Shown: positions 10,167 through 31,815 of the stretch, piece by piece
Position numbering within the stretch: position 1 is the stretch's first letter
Layout of the letters: the number at the start of each line of letters is the position of its first letter
IMG/VR virus record: IMGVR_UViG_3300025030_000319
Span: 1-31,921 of that record
DNA: 31,921 nucleotides
Direction: 5' to 3' (one strand)
Source: a virus
The notes under the pieces: model-generated
The model's input: the letters and a program-made list of their open reading frames with translations, nothing else
Database searches by the model: none
Told to the model about the DNA's origin: nothing
Position numbers and translations under genes: made by a program

Positions 10167-10543
10167 TTCCTCACTCCACCATAAGATTTTTTAATCTTCT
10201 CAATTATTTCAGAATCAATTAATTCTAAGATATCCCTAGCCTTATCATCATCAACCGTAAAATATTCCTTAACCACATTTAAGGTTTCAATATCCATCAC
10301 TGATTGTTTAGGATATTTAAAGTAACGAGATTTCTTATGTAAGGCTCCATGATAAAAGAGATAATGAAACTCATCTGGAATCTTACTGAATTGATTCATC
10401 TCGTTAGCAAACAAGACTGTATCGGGAGCTAAGGATAAGATATAATTAATCATGTACTGGCTATAAACCTTTTTGAATTCCTCAGTACCAGATATATCTT
10501 GTTTACTATTACTTATGTTGTTCGCTATCTGAAAAATATTCAA
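10163..10543 (-). CDS. 62: Clamp loader small subunit, gp62-like
   Basis: The 126-residue protein resembles the short gp62 of marine T4-like phages. Shared features are YSQYMINYILSLAPDTVLFANEMN, the KKSRYFKYPKQ basic stretch, VVKEYFTVDDDKARDIL, and a C-terminal EIIEKIKKSYGG. With gp44 it loads the gp45 clamp onto DNA. The gene has no ATG at its 5' end: the start appears to be TTG at 10543, overlapping the TGA of the upstream endonuclease gene, with AAGGG 11 nt before it. T4 gp62 is longer (187 residues). Gene order 45-44-62-regA supports the call. Confidence 0.82.
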   Translation of the reverse strand: MNIFQIANNISNSKQDISGTEEFKKVYSQYMINYILSLAPDTVLFANEMNQFSKIPDEFHYLFYHGALHKKSRYFKYPKQSVMDIETLNVVKEYFTVDDDKARDILELIDSEIIEKIKKSYGGVRK

Positions 10544-11577
10544 GGTAAATACAACCCTTCTAATAATTTATATTGTTCTTCGTGCGGTAAATACCAAGGA
10601 ATTTCTATTAATCTAATTCCATTAGCTAAACAATAATCTCTTAATTCCTGATCTCGTTTTTGTTGTTTCTCAAAGGCTTTTTGATCTCCCCAAAACTTTA
10701 CAGGTTTGTAATGTTGCACACCATTGTATTCTATAAATACACCATTGACAACAAAATCAATATAATATTTTCTATCATTATGTTTGATTATTTTCTTCTT
10801 AACATTATCTTCCCCATATTTTTCTTTGAGCCAATTTCTAATTCTAGTTTCATTCTTTAAAAGACAGTCAGGACAACCATGCCCCTTTAAAATTACACAG
10901 GGTATGGTTTCCCATATATTCCCATCAACCAAACACTTAAATTTAATTTTAGTTTTAGCATTAACAACGTCACCTATTCTCAAAATTTGTTTGTCTGAAA
11001 GATATTCATCTACCCTTTCATTTGTTATCTTATCTAACTTAGCACATCTTGGGCAGCCATGACCACAGAATACACTGTTAGGTGTAGTTACCCACTCAAA
11101 CCCATCAATTAAACATTTAAATTTGGTCTTATAAAAACTAGTTTTGTACTCTCCTATTCGTTGAATGTTAGTTCCTAATAATCTTTCGTCGCACACACTA
11201 TTATTTATTTTCTCTTTCCCCGAACAACGTTGACACCCATTTTTATTTATTGTTAAATTTTTAGGAGTACACAACCATTCATAACCATCAACCAAACACT
11301 TGAACCTTATAGGCGTAGACCCATTTATATATTCTCCTATTCGTTGAATGTTAGTTCCTAATAATCTTTCATCTAGAATTTCATTAGTTAATTTTAGTCT
11401 ATTACTACAAATAGGACAGTTATTCCCCATTAAAACGATATTAGGTTTTGCTTCCCAAATATGATCATGTTCGCACTTAAACCTAATCTTTATTCTACTA
11501 TCAGTATAATCATCTATTCTCAGAATGTTTCTTTTAAGTAATCTTTCATCTATGATTGTGTTAGTTAACCTTTTCAT
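10540..11577 (-). CDS. Homing-type endonuclease: four zinc modules plus PD-(D/E)XK-like domain
   Basis: The 345-residue protein has four tandem units of about 60 residues (1-60, 61-120, 121-180, 181-240). Each has an FKC...W core and a closing CPxC or CxxC pair (C35/54/57, C94/115/118, C155/175/178, C215/235/238), probably DNA-reading zinc modules. Residues 250-335 form a nuclease domain with D274 (YYIDF), E283 (FIEYNG), Q288 and H289. Such architecture is typical of free-standing phage homing endonucleases. It lies between gp44 and gp62 and ends in an overlap with gp62. Start and binding site are hidden in a long hairpin. Confidence 0.85.
   Translation of the reverse strand: MKRLTNTIIDERLLKRNILRIDDYTDSRIKIRFKCEHDHIWEAKPNIVLMGNNCPICSNRLKLTNEILDERLLGTNIQRIGEYINGSTPIRFKCLVDGYEWLCTPKNLTINKNGCQRCSGKEKINNSVCDERLLGTNIQRIGEYKTSFYKTKFKCLIDGFEWVTTPNSVFCGHGCPRCAKLDKITNERVDEYLSDKQILRIGDVVNAKTKIKFKCLVDGNIWETIPCVILKGHGCPDCLLKNETRIRNWLKEKYGEDNVKKKIIKHNDRKYYIDFVVNGVFIEYNGVQHYKPVKFWGDQKAFEKQQKRDQELRDYCLANGIRLIEIPWYLPHEEQYKLLEGLYLP
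11151..11370. repeat. 37-bp exact direct repeat within the endonuclease gene
   Basis: The 37-bp sequence at 11151-11187 recurs exactly at 11334-11370, a period of 183 bp or 61 codons. It encodes the ERLLGTNIQRIGEY part of modules 2 and 3. Identity at third codon positions points to recent module duplication or gene conversion. Confidence 0.85.
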
Positions 11578-21947: not shown

Positions 21948-22661
21948 TTAGTATATACAGCTTCCACAAATTTTTTTATTAACGTCACCTATATTATTTC
22001 TTATCTCTTCATAGCTGTTATCATTTAAGTTTCCTAATCTACCAGTCAACCCATAATCCATACAACATAAAATTATATCCCCATTAGGTAATAATACATT
22101 ATGATCGAAATCCTTACTCAGAGAGCAATGAGCCTTACCATTCTTAACACTAGTATATATCTCCTTGTTGTTGCCAGCTCTTGAGTGAGGATCATAATTC
22201 TTGTTTATCTTAATCCCATCTTGAGGAGAATCAAAACAAGCGTAATGAGTTAAGGGAGGATTATTAGACTCGCTTATCTTATCGAAAAACTCTAAGTAAG
22301 ACTCATTAATCTTAAGCCTCATAGAAACATCAGGAACATGAATAACAAAGGGGTTAGGAGGATAATTTCTTAACGCCTCTAATTTTTCTTCGGTGATTCC
22401 GAAAAGAGTTGTATACACACAATAGTTTAATTTGTTATTTTCAAGAATCCTTATCAACTCGACAAAATGAGTATATAATAAACTCTCACTCATTCCCGAA
22501 AGATCAATCCTCACATCCTTTGGAATCATACCTAAATATTTTTCTAGGTCATTCAGACTCATTTCTTTTTGACCAGTATAATTATCCCTTAATACATCTT
22601 GAGGACAATAATTACATAAGATAGGACAAGGAAGATAAAGAGTTAATTCTAATGTTCTCAT
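21948..22661 (-). CDS. Radical SAM/SPASM-type protein
   Basis: The 237-residue protein carries CPILCNYC (C12, C16, C19), the CX3CX2C site for the radical SAM iron-sulfur cluster. A Cys-containing C-terminal region with HCSL, ILCCMDYG and KKICGSC is typical of SPASM or twitch auxiliary-cluster domains. LPNGDIILCCMDY and GRLGNL match the usual SPASM pattern. It is short for this class. The neighbours are glycosyltransferases, with ATGA overlap to the next, so it may modify a sugar or peptide in the same pathway. Confidence 0.8.
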   Translation of the reverse strand: MRTLELTLYLPCPILCNYCPQDVLRDNYTGQKEMSLNDLEKYLGMIPKDVRIDLSGMSESLLYTHFVELIRILENNKLNYCVYTTLFGITEEKLEALRNYPPNPFVIHVPDVSMRLKINESYLEFFDKISESNNPPLTHYACFDSPQDGIKINKNYDPHSRAGNNKEIYTSVKNGKAHCSLSKDFDHNVLLPNGDIILCCMDYGLTGRLGNLNDNSYEEIRNNIGDVNKKICGSCIY

Positions 22662-26952: not shown

Positions 26953-28155
26953 TCACAAAGATTTATAATAATTAATCAATTGACGTTCAGCTTCAAATTT
27001 CTTATCTTTACCCTTAGCTTTATCAATACGCTCAGTATCATACTTGAAATCGCGCAATTTGTCAAGCTTAATTTTTACCTTACGTTGATCTTCACTCAAG
27101 ACATGATCAGCATTACACACCAAAAAGAAATCCTCATAATATCGTTTAGGAATTTGTTTGTAAAACTTAATGAGAGTGCTAGGTTTCATCTCATGAATAT
27201 TATGAACCTTCATATGTAATTTTGCGATAATCAATGAGAGTTCATTTACATCACTAGTAAACCGATTAACCTTCAGAATATCCTTGAGCATATCATAACC
27301 ACGATTTTCGTGGCCGATATGTTGACGACGACCATTACCATAAAACTCTTCAGGTGTGTTAATTTTTCCCAAGTCGTGAAAAAGTCCAGAAATCATACAC
27401 TTGAAGTCACCGTTAGACTCTTCAATTTTATCAATAACGTTCATGGTGTGGTCTAGGATTGAATTTTCTCCATGATACTTCTCAGGACCAGCGAAACGAT
27501 TATTCATCTCATGAACTTCAGGAAAGATATATTGAAGTCCATCAAGGTAATGAAGATCACGAAAGAAAGATGAAATTCGCTTAACATTTTTACTATGATA
27601 ACATTTATTTAGTTCTTTCTCAATTCTTTCCTTGGTAACATGTTTGAGACGATGAGAATTAAGTTTAGCAGATTGAACCGTACCAGATTCAATCTTAAAC
27701 CCAAATCTAGTGGCGAATCTTGCGAGACGCAAGATTCTAACAGGATCGTCAACAAAGGCATTAGGATTAATACTTCTCAGGATACCACTAGTAATATCAG
27801 CAACCCCATTATAAGGATCAATAATTTCTCCAGTGGCACAATTTTTGGCAACGGAATTAACGCTGAAGTCACGACGAGCTAGGTCTTCCTCAATAGGAAC
27901 TCCAACTCCAGTTACCACGAAATCTCCATAACCATTACCTGAAGATTTCTCTGACCGTGTTAATGAAATTTCGTTACCGTTAAGAAGGTAAACAGGGAAA
28001 ACATTACCTACTAATTTAGCTTCAGGAAAATGAAATGTAAATTCATCCGTGGTCATGGCTGTCACGTAATCGAAATCATTACAGGGAATCCCCATAATGG
28101 AATCTCTCACACAACCACCCACCTGAAAAAATCTATGTGTATGTTCTTTAAACAT
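26953..28155 (-). CDS. cca: CCA tRNA nucleotidyltransferase with HD domain
   Basis: The 400-residue protein is a class II CCA-adding enzyme. The head has GGCVRD (13-18), the metal-binding DFDYV (27-31) and the RRDFSVN motif (94-100). The neck has DPVRILRLARFATRFGF (137-153). A C-terminal HD domain shows HGENSILDHTM and FHDLGK. It adds or repairs the 3' CCA of tRNAs. No tRNA gene is visible in this window. AAAAGGTAAACTA precedes the ATG and includes the previous stop. It is uncommon in phages, and probably serves phage tRNAs elsewhere or damaged host tRNAs. Confidence 0.92.
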   Translation of the reverse strand: MFKEHTHRFFQVGGCVRDSIMGIPCNDFDYVTAMTTDEFTFHFPEAKLVGNVFPVYLLNGNEISLTRSEKSSGNGYGDFVVTGVGVPIEEDLARRDFSVNSVAKNCATGEIIDPYNGVADITSGILRSINPNAFVDDPVRILRLARFATRFGFKIESGTVQSAKLNSHRLKHVTKERIEKELNKCYHSKNVKRISSFFRDLHYLDGLQYIFPEVHEMNNRFAGPEKYHGENSILDHTMNVIDKIEESNGDFKCMISGLFHDLGKINTPEEFYGNGRRQHIGHENRGYDMLKDILKVNRFTSDVNELSLIIAKLHMKVHNIHEMKPSTLIKFYKQIPKRYYEDFFLVCNADHVLSEDQRKVKIKLDKLRDFKYDTERIDKAKGKDKKFEAERQLINYYKSL

Positions 28156-28668: not shown

Positions 28669-28985
28669 GTATTATCTTTCTTGTTAAACTGAATATACTT
28701 AGATCTGAAAAAGTAAGGAGTCTCAATGATAGGATAAATTTCCCTGTCAATGAGATTAGAAAATATTATTTGTTCTCCCTTACTTTTATTACACTCCTCA
28801 CAACAGACAACATAATTATCCTTATAACAATCATTATTATCTTCTATATGAAGAATAGGAATGATATGATCTAAGGTAGGATTAATTACATCTTCCTTGC
28901 AGTAGACACAAATCCTACCTTGATCCTCATATAACCTTTGTCTGGTAGTTATTCTAAAATTAGGATCTTCTCTCAAATATATCAC
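28665..28985 (-). CDS. HNH endonuclease
   Basis: The 106-residue protein has a full small HNH domain: GRICVYCKEDV, LDHIIPILH with the catalytic DH, and NYVVCCEECNKSKG with the second CxxC and final Asn/Lys. GTG at 28985 overlaps the stop of the poly-Ser-tagged gene (GTGA), so it is translated as part of that operon. It could be a homing nuclease, a host-DNA nuclease or part of the operon's function. Confidence 0.82.
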   Translation of the reverse strand: MIYLREDPNFRITTRQRLYEDQGRICVYCKEDVINPTLDHIIPILHIEDNNDCYKDNYVVCCEECNKSKGEQIIFSNLIDREIYPIIETPYFFRSKYIQFNKKDNT

Positions 28986-29203
28986 CCATCATATCCACCA
29001 CCATGTTCAAAGTCAACACGTTTAATACCCTTAGCTTTAGCTTCGACTAATTTCTCAATAAGAGCATCAATATCCACTGACGTACCACCACAGCATTCCA
29101 TATCAGTGTTACCATCCTCAAGAATACTCTGACCACCAACACTCATAATAATGAAACTCGACGACGAACTGTTCGCCACAAAACTTTTTCTGATTTTAGC
29201 CAT
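28982..29203 (-). CDS. Poly-Ser-tagged protein A (FVANSSSSSF)
   Basis: This 73-residue product is the shortest of four that share an N-terminal tag: MAKIRKSFVANSSSSSF, with one residue inserted relative to the others. After the tag the sequence is Gly/Asp-rich, has CC at about 37-38, and ends HGGGYDG. The small size recalls a precursor peptide. Ser codons in the tag mix AGT and TCG. AAAGGAGATAACTA precedes the ATG, which overlaps the previous stop (TAATG). Function is unknown. Confidence 0.72.
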   Translation of the reverse strand: MAKIRKSFVANSSSSSFIIMSVGGQSILEDGNTDMECCGGTSVDIDALIEKLVEAKAKGIKRVDFEHGGGYDG

Positions 29204-29664
29204 TAGTTATCTCCTTTGACCCAATTTTGAAATTCATCGAACGTTTTAAATTGACTCTTGATAGCGTCTTCCTCCACTACAGAAGAAGTGTTAAAATTAC
29301 GATAGACATAATCATTATACTCAGGATCGTATAATTTCTTTCGACGTTTATTTAATTGTTTCACTTCCTCAAACACTACCTTTTGATCTACCTTATATTT
29401 AGCCTCAAGGTAACGCTTAACATCATAATCAGTGAAATTTAAGAACAAACAAAATGGGCAATTACTAGCAGGAATTTCGTAATAATCATCCTCTTCTAAC
29501 AACTCTCCCACAATACCATCCCGACAAATTGTATGACCATTTTCACAATCACAATGATATACATCTGAGGGTGACAAGTCTCGACCCCCAAAGGTTTCCC
29601 CACATAAATCACAAACAAAAGAACTTGAACTTGAATTACTTACGAATCCTAATCTTACCTTCAT
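29203..29664 (-). CDS. Poly-Ser-tagged protein B (FVSNSSSSSF)
   Basis: This 153-residue protein starts MKVRLGFVSNSSSSSF. Behind it lies a Cys-rich part (CDLCGE, CDCENGHTIC, CPFC), probably two zinc ribbons, then a basic helix and an acidic C-terminus. The tag uses TCA and AGT Ser codons in alternation, unlike its neighbours, so the motif is conserved in protein rather than by recent DNA copying. Function is unknown. Confidence 0.75.
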   Translation of the reverse strand: MKVRLGFVSNSSSSSFVCDLCGETFGGRDLSPSDVYHCDCENGHTICRDGIVGELLEEDDYYEIPASNCPFCLFLNFTDYDVKRYLEAKYKVDQKVVFEEVKQLNKRRKKLYDPEYNDYVYRNFNTSSVVEEDAIKSQFKTFDEFQNWVKGDN

Positions 29665-29666
29665 AA

Positions 29667-30074
29667 TTAATTGTCTCCCGAAATTAAATAGATACCAGAC
29701 CCATCATCTTCATCAGGGAGTTCACACATAGTTTCTACTTTACCCTGATCATCATGGTTATCAAGATCAAAATAACGAACAGTGTAACCGCTATTAATGG
29801 CTTTCAACATTTTCTCATAAAGATCCTTTACGTAATCTTCTTCAAGAACACTTTCCAAGTTATCATCTCGATAACCATGTTGACGTATAACAAACTCCTC
29901 AACTTGTTTAACGTTTACTATACTCTCATCACTGTTAGTTAACATTTTAATTAGCTTATTAACCATATTCTTGATGAAAGGACTTACGTTACCACAATCA
30001 AGATTAATGTCCTTGATTGCAATTAAAAAACTTGACGACGAGCTGTTTGCGACAAAACTAAATCTTGTTTTCAT
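29667..30074 (-). CDS. Poly-Ser-tagged protein C (FVANSSSSSF)
   Basis: This 135-residue protein starts MKTRFSFVANSSSSSF and continues with an acidic, mostly helical body of no known family, ending GSGIYLISGDN. AAAAGGAG lies 11 nt before the ATG. It is the second tagged gene after the radical SAM gene. Function is unknown. Confidence 0.75.
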   Translation of the reverse strand: MKTRFSFVANSSSSSFLIAIKDINLDCGNVSPFIKNMVNKLIKMLTNSDESIVNVKQVEEFVIRQHGYRDDNLESVLEEDYVKDLYEKMLKAINSGYTVRYFDLDNHDDQGKVETMCELPDEDDGSGIYLISGDN

Positions 30075-30091
30075 TCTCTTAAATTCTCCTT

Positions 30092-30739
30092 TTAATGATG
30101 ACTAAATCTTTCGTGACTTGGAAAGAAATCCCAATGTTCTCCGTGTTCAAGTTGGGATTGTAATGCTCCTTCATTATCACTAAATTCTCCCATCATGAAC
30201 ACACCCATTTTATCTTTATTATACCCCTTAATCAGGCGAATGAAGGATTCAACACTCTTAATGAATTCTTCCCTTACTTCTTTTTGTTCATACCAATCAG
30301 CTTCCCACTGCTGTCTTACTTCCCAAGGAATATTGTAAAGTGATTTCAGTTCTGGATTAAGTTTCTGTTCTTTCTTAAATATTTTATCCATGTTCTTTTC
30401 AAATAAAGTTTTACCACAACCATAATTACTATATTCTTGTTCGTATTTAAAAATCTGACTCAACTCATCAAGAATTGAACGTTCATTACACTGTTCAATA
30501 TCTTTATTGTCATCCCACTTGAAACTATAAGTTTTACTCATCTCAAGTAGTTTATCAAAGTCTAATGAGAATTCTTTTAACCCATCAAATAATCCTTGAA
30601 TGATAACAGGAGCAACAAACTCTTTAGTCTCACCAAACCAGATTTCTCCAGCTTCCTCAACAGTTTTAGGAATAGATTTACATCCGATAATGAAAGACGA
30701 GCTGGAACTGTTGCTGACGAACCCCGATCTTGTTTTCAC
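30092..30739 (-). CDS. Poly-Ser-tagged protein D (FVSNSSSSSF), GTG start
   Basis: The GTG at 30739 follows AAGGAGAATAATT and puts the tag, KTRSGFVSNSSSSSF, at the N-terminus as in the other three. The 215-residue product is the largest tagged protein, with a Trp-rich, charged helical body (IPWEVRQQWEADWYEQK) and a His-rich end (HGEHWDFFPSHERFSHH). It starts 11 nt after the radical SAM stop. No family is recognised beyond the tag. Confidence 0.78.
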   Translation of the reverse strand: MKTRSGFVSNSSSSSFIIGCKSIPKTVEEAGEIWFGETKEFVAPVIIQGLFDGLKEFSLDFDKLLEMSKTYSFKWDDNKDIEQCNERSILDELSQIFKYEQEYSNYGCGKTLFEKNMDKIFKKEQKLNPELKSLYNIPWEVRQQWEADWYEQKEVREEFIKSVESFIRLIKGYNKDKMGVFMMGEFSDNEGALQSQLEHGEHWDFFPSHERFSHH

Positions 30740-30750
30740 AATTATTCTCC

Positions 30751-31815
30751 TTAGACTTGAAACACAGGGCAATCCCTATCACACGATAGAGAAATATTCT
30801 TCCATTTATTTACAATATCTGAATTCCAGATTTCATCAAAAGATTCTGATTCCAAAACATTAATTCCATCTTTCCAATCATCACAAGAGTTTTCCATGAA
30901 AGAACAAGGGAAATATTTTCCCTCAGAATTAATGTAAGAACTAAACAATCCAAACGACTCACAAGGTTCCATAAGATGTTCGTATTTTTTCAGAATACCT
31001 AATTTCTCAAATGTACGTTTTGTCCGATGATAGGAACAACTATCAAACCCTAAACCAACATTCTCTTTGAATGCTTGAGTAACAATACTATAGAAATCCT
31101 TATCATCAATACTATTGAATGACTCTCCCCTACCCTTCTGTTTCAGTGCTAGAAGCACCACAGCATTAAGTTTAGCGAGTCGTGGATCATTAGCAGCAGT
31201 ATTGATAACCTCCTTAACAAAATCAACATTATTTTTGTGATAACACACATGAATATTAATCTGTTTCATTCCAGCATCAGTTAATGTTTTAATGGCATCA
31301 TAACAAACTTCTGGATTACGTTCATAAACACTAACACTAATCGCACCACAATATTTTACGAGGTTACTCACTATATCAGGAGTAAGTCTAGCACCATTAA
31401 TGGTAATGTTTGGAATGATATCAATACTTCTGCAATAATCAAACATCTTAAAGAGATCTTCGCAATGATCAATATCACCAACCCCCGCTGCTAGTTGCGT
31501 TAAGGTTGTAACATTATTCACTTTTTTGAATTTATCGATGATGGTCTTGAAGGTGTCAAAGGACATACTATTACCCTTGTTACCAACATTAGCTTTATAG
31601 CAAAACGGACAAGGCTGATAAACACCATTAGAGTCAGGAATACCATGACAAACTTCGTCTAATTCTATATCTAGAATTTCAGGAAATGGTGCAGAGGTTG
31701 GATCATCCTCAAAAGTTTTACCCCACCTTTGGAAGAATCCATTTTTAAGATTGAATCGATACGAATAGTCGGTGCTGTCGAAACATTTGATTCCATCCTT
31801 AATATAAAGTTTCAT
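30751..31815 (-). CDS. Radical SAM enzyme heading the poly-Ser-tag operon
   Basis: The 354-residue protein has C56, C69 and C72 (CX12CX2C), an expanded radical SAM cluster site ending CPFCYK. An alpha/beta barrel-like region follows (LTQLAAGVGDIDHCEDLF, NITINGARLT, SVSVYERNPE). C-terminal Cys 260, 285, 304, 311, 345 and 349 suggest auxiliary iron-sulfur clusters as in SPASM enzymes, which often modify peptides. The tagged genes follow immediately. No convincing promoter was found upstream. The substrate is unknown; the adjacent tag motif is the obvious candidate. Confidence 0.85.
   Translation of the reverse strand: MKLYIKDGIKCFDSTDYSYRFNLKNGFFQRWGKTFEDDPTSAPFPEILDIELDEVCHGIPDSNGVYQPCPFCYKANVGNKGNSMSFDTFKTIIDKFKKVNNVTTLTQLAAGVGDIDHCEDLFKMFDYCRSIDIIPNITINGARLTPDIVSNLVKYCGAISVSVYERNPEVCYDAIKTLTDAGMKQINIHVCYHKNNVDFVKEVINTAANDPRLAKLNAVVLLALKQKGRGESFNSIDDKDFYSIVTQAFKENVGLGFDSCSYHRTKRTFEKLGILKKYEHLMEPCESFGLFSSYINSEGKYFPCSFMENSCDDWKDGINVLESESFDEIWNSDIVNKWKNISLSCDRDCPVFQV

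Follow-up and report, generated by a model that had tools for sequence, protein, structure and literature searches.

Why would a virus give four otherwise dissimilar proteins the same serine-rich start, and encode a radical S-adenosylmethionine (SAM) enzyme immediately upstream of them? The question is raised by one end of the viral record IMGVR_UViG_3300025030_000319, analysed as a single stretch of 31,921 nucleotides (nt) and referred to here as the window. On its minus strand the enzyme gene is followed, after a gap of 11 nt, by four tandem open reading frames (ORFs) for proteins of 215, 135, 153 and 73 amino acids (aa), called tagged proteins 1 to 4 in that order (Table 1). An initial annotation of the locus had reported the gap, the four lengths and the shared tag; gap and lengths are correct, and MK-x-R-xx-FV[S/A]NSSSSSF is found in all four proteins. 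Because the enzyme gene nearly always accompanies tagged genes, the two are probably parts of an undescribed system for modifying whole proteins. We consider it likely that the enzyme covalently modifies the shared N-terminal tag on full-size proteins, in a widespread system with a role in conflict.

The tag is maintained as a protein motif rather than through recent copying of DNA, because nucleotides and codons diverge while the residues stay identical. In pairwise comparisons over FVxNSSSSSF, the four window tags differ at 5 to 19 of 30 nt, yet 9 or 10 of the 10 residues are the same, with TCN and AGY serine codons intermixed at equal positions. Across 325 same-locus pairs from many loci, identical tag residues are written with different codons in 52% of cases, with free switching between TCN and AGY. 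The serine codons had earlier been taken as a sign of selection on the protein motif rather than recent copying, and the larger sample bears this out. A degenerate DNA pattern for FV-x-N-SSSSS-F matched the window exactly four times, at the four tagged ORFs, and 100 dinucleotide shuffles of the window gave zero matches. Backward-pattern controls gave 0 matches everywhere they were tried. Chance similarity of the tags is excluded by these shuffles and controls, together with the random viral contigs and phylum-wide genome samples described below.

Linkage of tag and enzyme genes in viruses and cells

A tag pattern with TCN serines only retrieved 17 viral stretches, nearly all with several tandem tagged ORFs. 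When whole records were searched, an enzyme homologue (38-45% identity) was present in 11 of the 16 tagged records tested; the record of L003, found via the enzyme search, also holds an enzyme homologue and was included with its tag cluster. The cluster lies no more than about 2 kb from the enzyme in 11 of 12 such records. A codon-neutral pattern extended the set to more than 119 viral stretches. The enzyme was found in 35 of 50 tagged viral contigs no shorter than 50 kb (30 at E<1e-80 to a profile built from phage enzymes, 5 at 1e-50 to 1e-58), vs 0 of 33 random viral contigs (Fisher p = 9e-12), these controls having been drawn with random 14- and 16-mers and being shorter on average than the tagged contigs. 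The enzyme-less tagged contigs (54-215 kb) are L075, L076, L079, L082, L083, L084, L088, L090, L103, L110, L115, L118, L125, L130 and L133. That a host enzyme serves these phages is unsupported, because their tags are of the phage type (mostly GFVSN) and not the bacterial DFVTN.

Among curated phages, 172 records carry the enzyme and 173 the tag, and the genus counts of the two groups are closely similar. Almost all of these phages are enterobacterial, and those opened were Straboviridae of the pseudoteven kind. Inspection of the immediate neighbourhood had indicated that pseudoteven phages carry the enzyme without tags; this was overturned by a whole-record search, which found two tagged genes in each. 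The Escherichia coli phages RB43, RB16 and Lw1 have both enzyme and tag.

The same association exists in cells. The codon-neutral pattern was found in more than 118 bacterial and archaeal stretches, mostly from Bacillota but also from Bacteroidota, Cyanobacteriota, Verrucomicrobiota, Myxococcota and methanogens. The phage-enzyme-built profile detected a homologue within 90 of 118 of these stretches (8 kb each), always on the strand of the tagged gene (90/90) and in 78 cases separated from it by 100 nt or less, often overlapping. Where whole tagged cellular genomes were available, 33 of 42 contained the enzyme, a discrete family usually present as a single copy; its best matches there mostly scored between E = 1e-37 and 1e-54, and other SPASM proteins, a few partial matches aside, at 1e-9 or worse.

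Among 398 Bacillota genomes drawn irrespective of the tag, the enzyme is present in 10 and the strict tag in 6, each of which also has the enzyme (p = 4e-11; 7e-8 if the two seed genomes are left out). The other enzyme loci that could be evaluated hold the variant tags MKIKMDFVTNSSSESF, MKVKIDFVTNSSSESF and MKIKADYITNSSSTSF, so that, read from enzyme to tag, 9 of 9 evaluable loci are tagged; the tenth genome was left out as its enzyme copy is cut by contig ends. Among 395 Bacteroidota genomes the enzyme was found in the seed genome only. A search of plasmids with the enzyme only returned operons from Rhodobacter, Agrobacterium and Rhizobium, and in the three that were read (3/3) a tagged gene lies directly upstream of the enzyme. 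The tag-enzyme system is therefore not phage-specific: many bacteria and some archaea have it, frequently in the form of a two-gene cassette. It had been suggested at the outset to measure how frequently the motif is found close to a radical SAM gene of the present type; tested in both directions, the association is strongly positive, and the motif did not prove to be widespread away from the enzyme gene. The accompanying idea of action on phage proteins, similar to the maturation of ribosomally synthesised and post-translationally modified peptides (RiPPs), is supported as regards the linkage, with the correction that the system extends beyond phages. Multi-gene tagged clusters also occur in genome bins (L297, a contig of a Heimdallarchaeota metagenome-assembled genome; L216, Kaiserbacteria; L274; L296). 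Some of these clusters may be mis-binned phage contigs, since L297 has a phage-clade enzyme and L216 groups with an enzyme from a viral contig.

Tag and enzyme also vary together. A tree of 125 enzymes comprises a phage clade of 46 rows (support 100), a cellular clade of 16 and a mainly Bacillota clade of 63. Viral contigs with a phage-clade enzyme have S9 in 86 of 88 tags and G6 in 79 of 88; on those with a bacterial-type enzyme the tag has T9 (14/14) and mostly D6 (12/14). Recognition by the enzyme of residues around F7-V8 would be expected to produce such co-variation. The cellular consensus is MKIRxDFVTNSSS[S/T]SF. Over the sampled tags, K2, R4 (K in some variants), F7, V8, N10, S11, S12 and S15 are strictly kept, and positions 13 and 14 accept T, A, C or, in variants, E; this conservation is partly imposed by the search pattern, the variant tags coming from loci found via the enzyme.

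The enzyme, the tagged proteins and their operons

The enzyme is a member of the radical SAM/SPASM (Twitch) superfamily, with a CX3CX2C-type motif, a partial TIM barrel and auxiliary cysteines. In the window enzyme the first loop of the motif is lengthened (C-x12-C-x2-C), and its relatives span from the canonical CX3CX2C to long loops. The extra C-terminal cysteines remarked upon in the initial annotation are those of SPASM/Twitch proteins, C260, C285, C304 and C349, which are invariant across 20 aligned phage and bacterial homologues; the cellular enzymes retain additional SPASM cysteines. A non-canonical motif, C-x7-C-x3-G-x2-C, in which Gly replaces the middle cysteine of CX3CX2C and an additional Cys lies upstream, was seen in L182, L191, L202 and L204, from the large Bacillota clade.

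By sequence, the window enzyme falls in the unnamed PHROGs family phrog_7293 (E = 2.5e-74) and just misses the SPASM model of Pfam (E = 3.9e-4, 21.1 vs a cutoff of 21.5), and one bacterial member passes TIGR04085 (31.1 vs 27 bits). For the enzyme, no NCBIfam model came near its cutoff, and the scores against every maturase model were far too low. The anaerobic sulfatase maturase model TIGR03942 gave 18.4 bits against a cutoff of 349, and the prokaryotic viperin model NF038283 gave 15-36 bits against 180. Nor did the window enzyme have a Pfam match at E<=1 to the PqqD-like RiPP recognition element (RRE), a leader-binding domain. An AlphaFold2 model of the enzyme (pLDDT 93.6, pTM 0.92) has a small N-terminal part of four beta strands. 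The nearest solved folds found with Foldseek are SkfB (E = 3.8e-12), SuiB (E = 5e-11) and CteB (E = 1e-9), followed by anSMEcpe (4k39, E = 4e-8) and TigE, with ChlB and viperin structures also among the list. SkfB, SuiB, CteB, anSMEcpe and TigE act on peptides or proteins. A sequence-profile search of solved structures returned only spurious repeat proteins.

The bodies that follow the tag are highly diverse. BLAST of the part beyond residue 18 divided 445 distinct tagged proteins (51-919 aa, 51 aa being the lower length cut-off used; median about 133-138) into 140 clusters, 97 of them singletons. The largest cluster has 85 proteins, among them tagged protein 2 and the commonest cellular tagged family (~138 aa, linked to the operons with STAND NTPases described below); it keeps a faint pattern past the tag, GxxVYxGxxSDE, and in many members an aromatic C-terminus. 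Tagged protein 3 belongs to a zinc-ribbon-like family of 34 members from phages and bacterial genomes (best relatives E = 1e-26). Tagged protein 1 matches phrog_7397 (the 'IPKTVEE' family) at its N-terminus (E = 3.1e-7), and the 73-aa tagged protein 4 has no convincing family match. In PHROGs both phrog_7293 and phrog_7397 are without assigned function, and no connection between the two is given. A shared C-terminal signal was sought in the tagged proteins and not found; only family-specific endings recur.

Tagged protein 2, the sole tagged protein modelled (AlphaFold2, 63 sequences, pLDDT 87), has a well folded body. Its residues 1-10 have a mean pLDDT of 50, and the serine run enters the first strand (13-20), so the N-terminal arm of the model is probably floppy. 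No significant fold match to the body was found in the PDB (best E = 0.03). Some cellular tagged proteins are very unlike the phage ones. L263 (4904-7663) encodes a 919-aa PQQ/BamB-like beta-propeller protein, and in L204 (3394-4812), L227, L268 and L284 a long hydrophobic segment follows the tag and a putative membrane protein adjoins.

In about 15 of the 90 cellular loci, essentially those of the 16-row clade, the cassette is part of a longer operon in the order STAND NTPase (up to about 1050 aa), untagged protein (120-156 aa), tagged protein (~138 aa) and enzyme, in some cases with a further protein of ~310 aa after the enzyme. Such operons were found in Bacillota, Bacteroidota, Cyanobacteriota, Verrucomicrobiota, Alphaproteobacteria and methanogens (L190, L181, L253, L220, L187, L242 and about 10 others, with the plasmids L466-L468); on the alphaproteobacterial plasmids the NTPase is annotated as a SMEK domain protein. 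The untagged protein of ~140 aa is similar in size and layout to its tagged neighbour downstream, of which it may be an untagged paralogue and so a built-in control for the contribution of the tag. The N-terminal parts of the NTPases vary between loci. That of a Methanoculleus locus matches Avs2 of PADLOC (E = 1.7e-22) over positions 272-744 of 1504 only, not over the full-length profile, and NACHT weakly. An Avs2 model matches 4 cassette neighbours, and no Avs2 is among the control families listed. As a rough measure, 314 PADLOC families were matched by 119 cassette neighbours vs 121 by 115 control proteins, which were genes from tagged or enzyme-bearing genomes. The operon looks like an undescribed Avs-like defence system. 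As in Avs/STAND systems, the NTPase matches Avs2 centrally and differs in its N-terminal part among loci; unlike them, it is joined by two additional small proteins, one of them tagged, and a radical SAM enzyme, and the Avs2 profile match is partial.

Explanations for the shared tag

If the tag is the substrate, the radical SAM/SPASM enzyme would recognise the N-terminal arm MKxRx[G/D]FV[S/T]NSSS[S/T]SF and make a radical-based covalent change within it, on full-size proteins with unrelated bodies. The arm would thus be leader and core combined, resembling a RiPP leader grafted onto many proteins, and once modified it would activate, anchor or protect the protein that carries it. Plausible sites for the change are the run of five serines and the invariant F-V-[S/T]-N-S-S, and the chemistry might be, as a guess, a cross-link or oxidation around F7-V8-[S/T]9-N10 or a change to one of the serines in the run. 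One cellular branch of the enzyme would serve the STAND-NTPase operon with its resemblance to Avs immune systems; the phage arrays of small tagged proteins with one enzyme would most likely be a set for host or inter-phage conflict. We infer the modification of the tag and, because of the STAND operons and phage arrays, the role in conflict. The linkage, the co-variation, the low-confidence N-terminus and the enzyme fold support what the initial annotation had proposed, that the tag is a recognition or modification site. To the stronger form, in which one radical SAM family puts the same covalent mark on the 16-residue N-terminal arm of more than 100 unrelated families across bacteria, archaea and phages, serving STAND-type immune operons and also large phages with their arsenals of tagged proteins, we give an even chance.

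Several observations weigh against this explanation. The enzyme was not detected in 15 of the 50 large tagged viral contigs, reflecting fragments or real absence, and a broader enzyme profile applied to 18 tagged enzyme-less viral contigs found none positive. It is also absent from 9 of the 42 tagged cellular genomes, for which incompleteness may account. In one 352-kb phage, tag and enzyme are more than 100 kb apart, and in the pseudoteven phages some 20 kb separate the enzyme from the two tagged genes. The co-variation may partly come from joint inheritance of enzyme and tag, and genomic linkage does not prove catalysis. Furthermore, the link to defence is by gene context in about 15 of 90 cellular loci only, and the PADLOC enrichment is rough.

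Among known systems, anaerobic sulfatase-maturating enzymes (anSMEs; Ser/Cys to formylglycine) offer one likeness, as radical SAM/SPASM enzymes that act on a short motif, serine included, in whole proteins. Sulfatases are modified at C/S-x-P/A-x-R. Unlike anSME substrates, the tag has no such motif, and no sulfatase was present among the tagged proteins scanned. Modules of an FxSxx peptide and a radical SAM/SPASM enzyme form part of the VMAP ternary conflict systems, coupled to NTPases; their motif is C-terminal and a zincin peptidase frees the peptide (PMC7159879). The present system shares with them an aromatic-x-Ser motif (F-x-[S/T] in the tag), a SPASM enzyme and a tie to NTPase-based conflict systems, but its tag is N-terminal on full-size proteins. 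Neither the zincin peptidase nor VMAP-ternary genes appear in the list of genes that recur beside cellular cassettes. No description of the tag-enzyme system was found in family databases or in the literature searched, which lacked most subscription papers and included no preprints.

The nearest parallels are the RiPP maturases (SuiB, SkfB, CteB, PqqE, MftC), which have the same fold class and auxiliary-cluster layout. As in their systems, a maturase-type gene stands beside a gene with a conserved, presumably recognised N-terminal sequence. The tag could then be a classical leader that only recruits the enzyme, with the chemistry in the body or the tag later cleaved. N-terminal leaders docking on SPASM maturases are the rule among known systems, and the fold matches include structures of SuiB with its precursor and of ChlB with its leader. 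However, no common motif is shared by the bodies of the 140 clusters, yet there is mostly one enzyme of this family per genome to act on them. The putative substrates are full-size proteins unlike RiPP cores, from many unrelated families and several per phage genome, and not short leader-core precursors; tagged protein 2 is modelled as a folded protein. Unlike many RiPP systems, this one has no RRE, and no exporter or peptidase recurs among the neighbours of the 90 cellular loci, features that are common but not universal. A recruiting leader is accordingly unlikely.

Rather less probable still is a viperin-like enzyme whose product is a small molecule, with the tagged proteins as effectors that bind enzyme or product and are not themselves modified. 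The defence-like operons and the viperin structures among the fold matches would suit this, as would the weak resemblance that one cellular enzyme bears to viperins of prokaryotes (PADLOC pVip, E = 6e-10). The viperin scores nevertheless fall far under the family cutoff, and the SPASM-type auxiliary cysteines, invariant here, are missing from viperin. Moreover, the closest folds modify peptides or proteins, and the invariant N10-S11-S12 and F7 look like substrate residues.

It is very improbable that the tagged proteins all share a single domain through remote homology, with the tag its best-preserved structural strand. The faint pattern kept past the tag in the 85-protein cluster and the passage of the tag into a beta strand speak for it, but the bodies clearly differ (zinc ribbon, beta-propeller, hydrophobic segment), residues 1-10 are of low confidence in the tagged protein 2 model, and serine runs with an invariant NSS would be unusual in a structural core. 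Least credible is that the tag is a targeting signal, as was also raised at the outset (e.g. for capsid packaging or compartment import), and that the radical SAM gene is a chance neighbour: small-protein arrays with a common N-terminal signal do recall the internal proteins of T4, which carry an N-terminal capsid-targeting sequence, and the tagged viral contigs without detectable enzyme would fit, but the pair abuts in cellular genomes, archaea and plasmids, in some cases within STAND operons, and the tag co-varies with the enzyme clade.

If modification of the tag is confirmed, radical SAM chemistry would be directed to full-size proteins by an N-terminal tag that is portable, providing both a tool and a new system of post-translational modification. 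For hundreds of phage proteins now called 'hypothetical' the tag would give a first clue to function, a start of MKxRxGFVSNSSSSSF placing them in one pathway, and together with the enzyme family it would link these phages to STAND-type immune operons.

Gene layout of the window

The features of the locus are given in Table 1.

Table 1. Positions of the enzyme gene, its cluster-binding regions and the four tagged genes in the window.
Feature	Position	Strand	Family or basis
Radical SAM enzyme, SPASM/Twitch-like C-terminus, 354 aa, proposed tag modifier	30751..31815	-	phrog_7293 family
Radical SAM [4Fe-4S] motif C56-x12-C69-PF-C72-YK	31600..31650	-	homologue alignments
Auxiliary-cluster (SPASM/Twitch) region C285-x13-G-x4-C304 ... 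C349	30769..30963	-	20 aligned homologues
Tagged protein 1, 215 aa, GTG start, tag VKTRSGFVSNSSSSSF at 30692-30739	30092..30739	-	phrog_7397-related
Tagged protein 2, 135 aa, tag MKTRFSFVANSSSSSF at 30027-30074	29667..30074	-	
Tagged protein 3, 153 aa, tag MKVRLGFVSNSSSSSF at 29617-29664, zinc-ribbon-like family	29203..29664	-	
Tagged protein 4, 73 aa, tag MAKIRKSFVANSSSSSF at 29153-29203, one extra residue (Ala)	28982..29203	-	

Elsewhere the window contains the T4-like replication genes gp32 and gp44. A second radical SAM/SPASM protein (21948-22661, minus strand; motif CPILCNYC, Pfam PF04055) is unrelated to the first and sits within a block of glycosyltransferase- and methyltransferase-like genes. 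At 26953-28155 (minus strand) is a protein like CCA-adding enzymes and poly(A) polymerases with an HD domain (PolyA_pol, E = 2e-19), despite which there is no tRNA gene in the window. An IS605-type TnpB-like protein (OrfB_IS605, Cas12f1-like TNB) is encoded mid-contig at 7797-8963 (minus strand), and a 345-aa protein at 10540-11577 (minus strand) is built of repeated DUF4379 / CapR treble-clef zinc-finger units.

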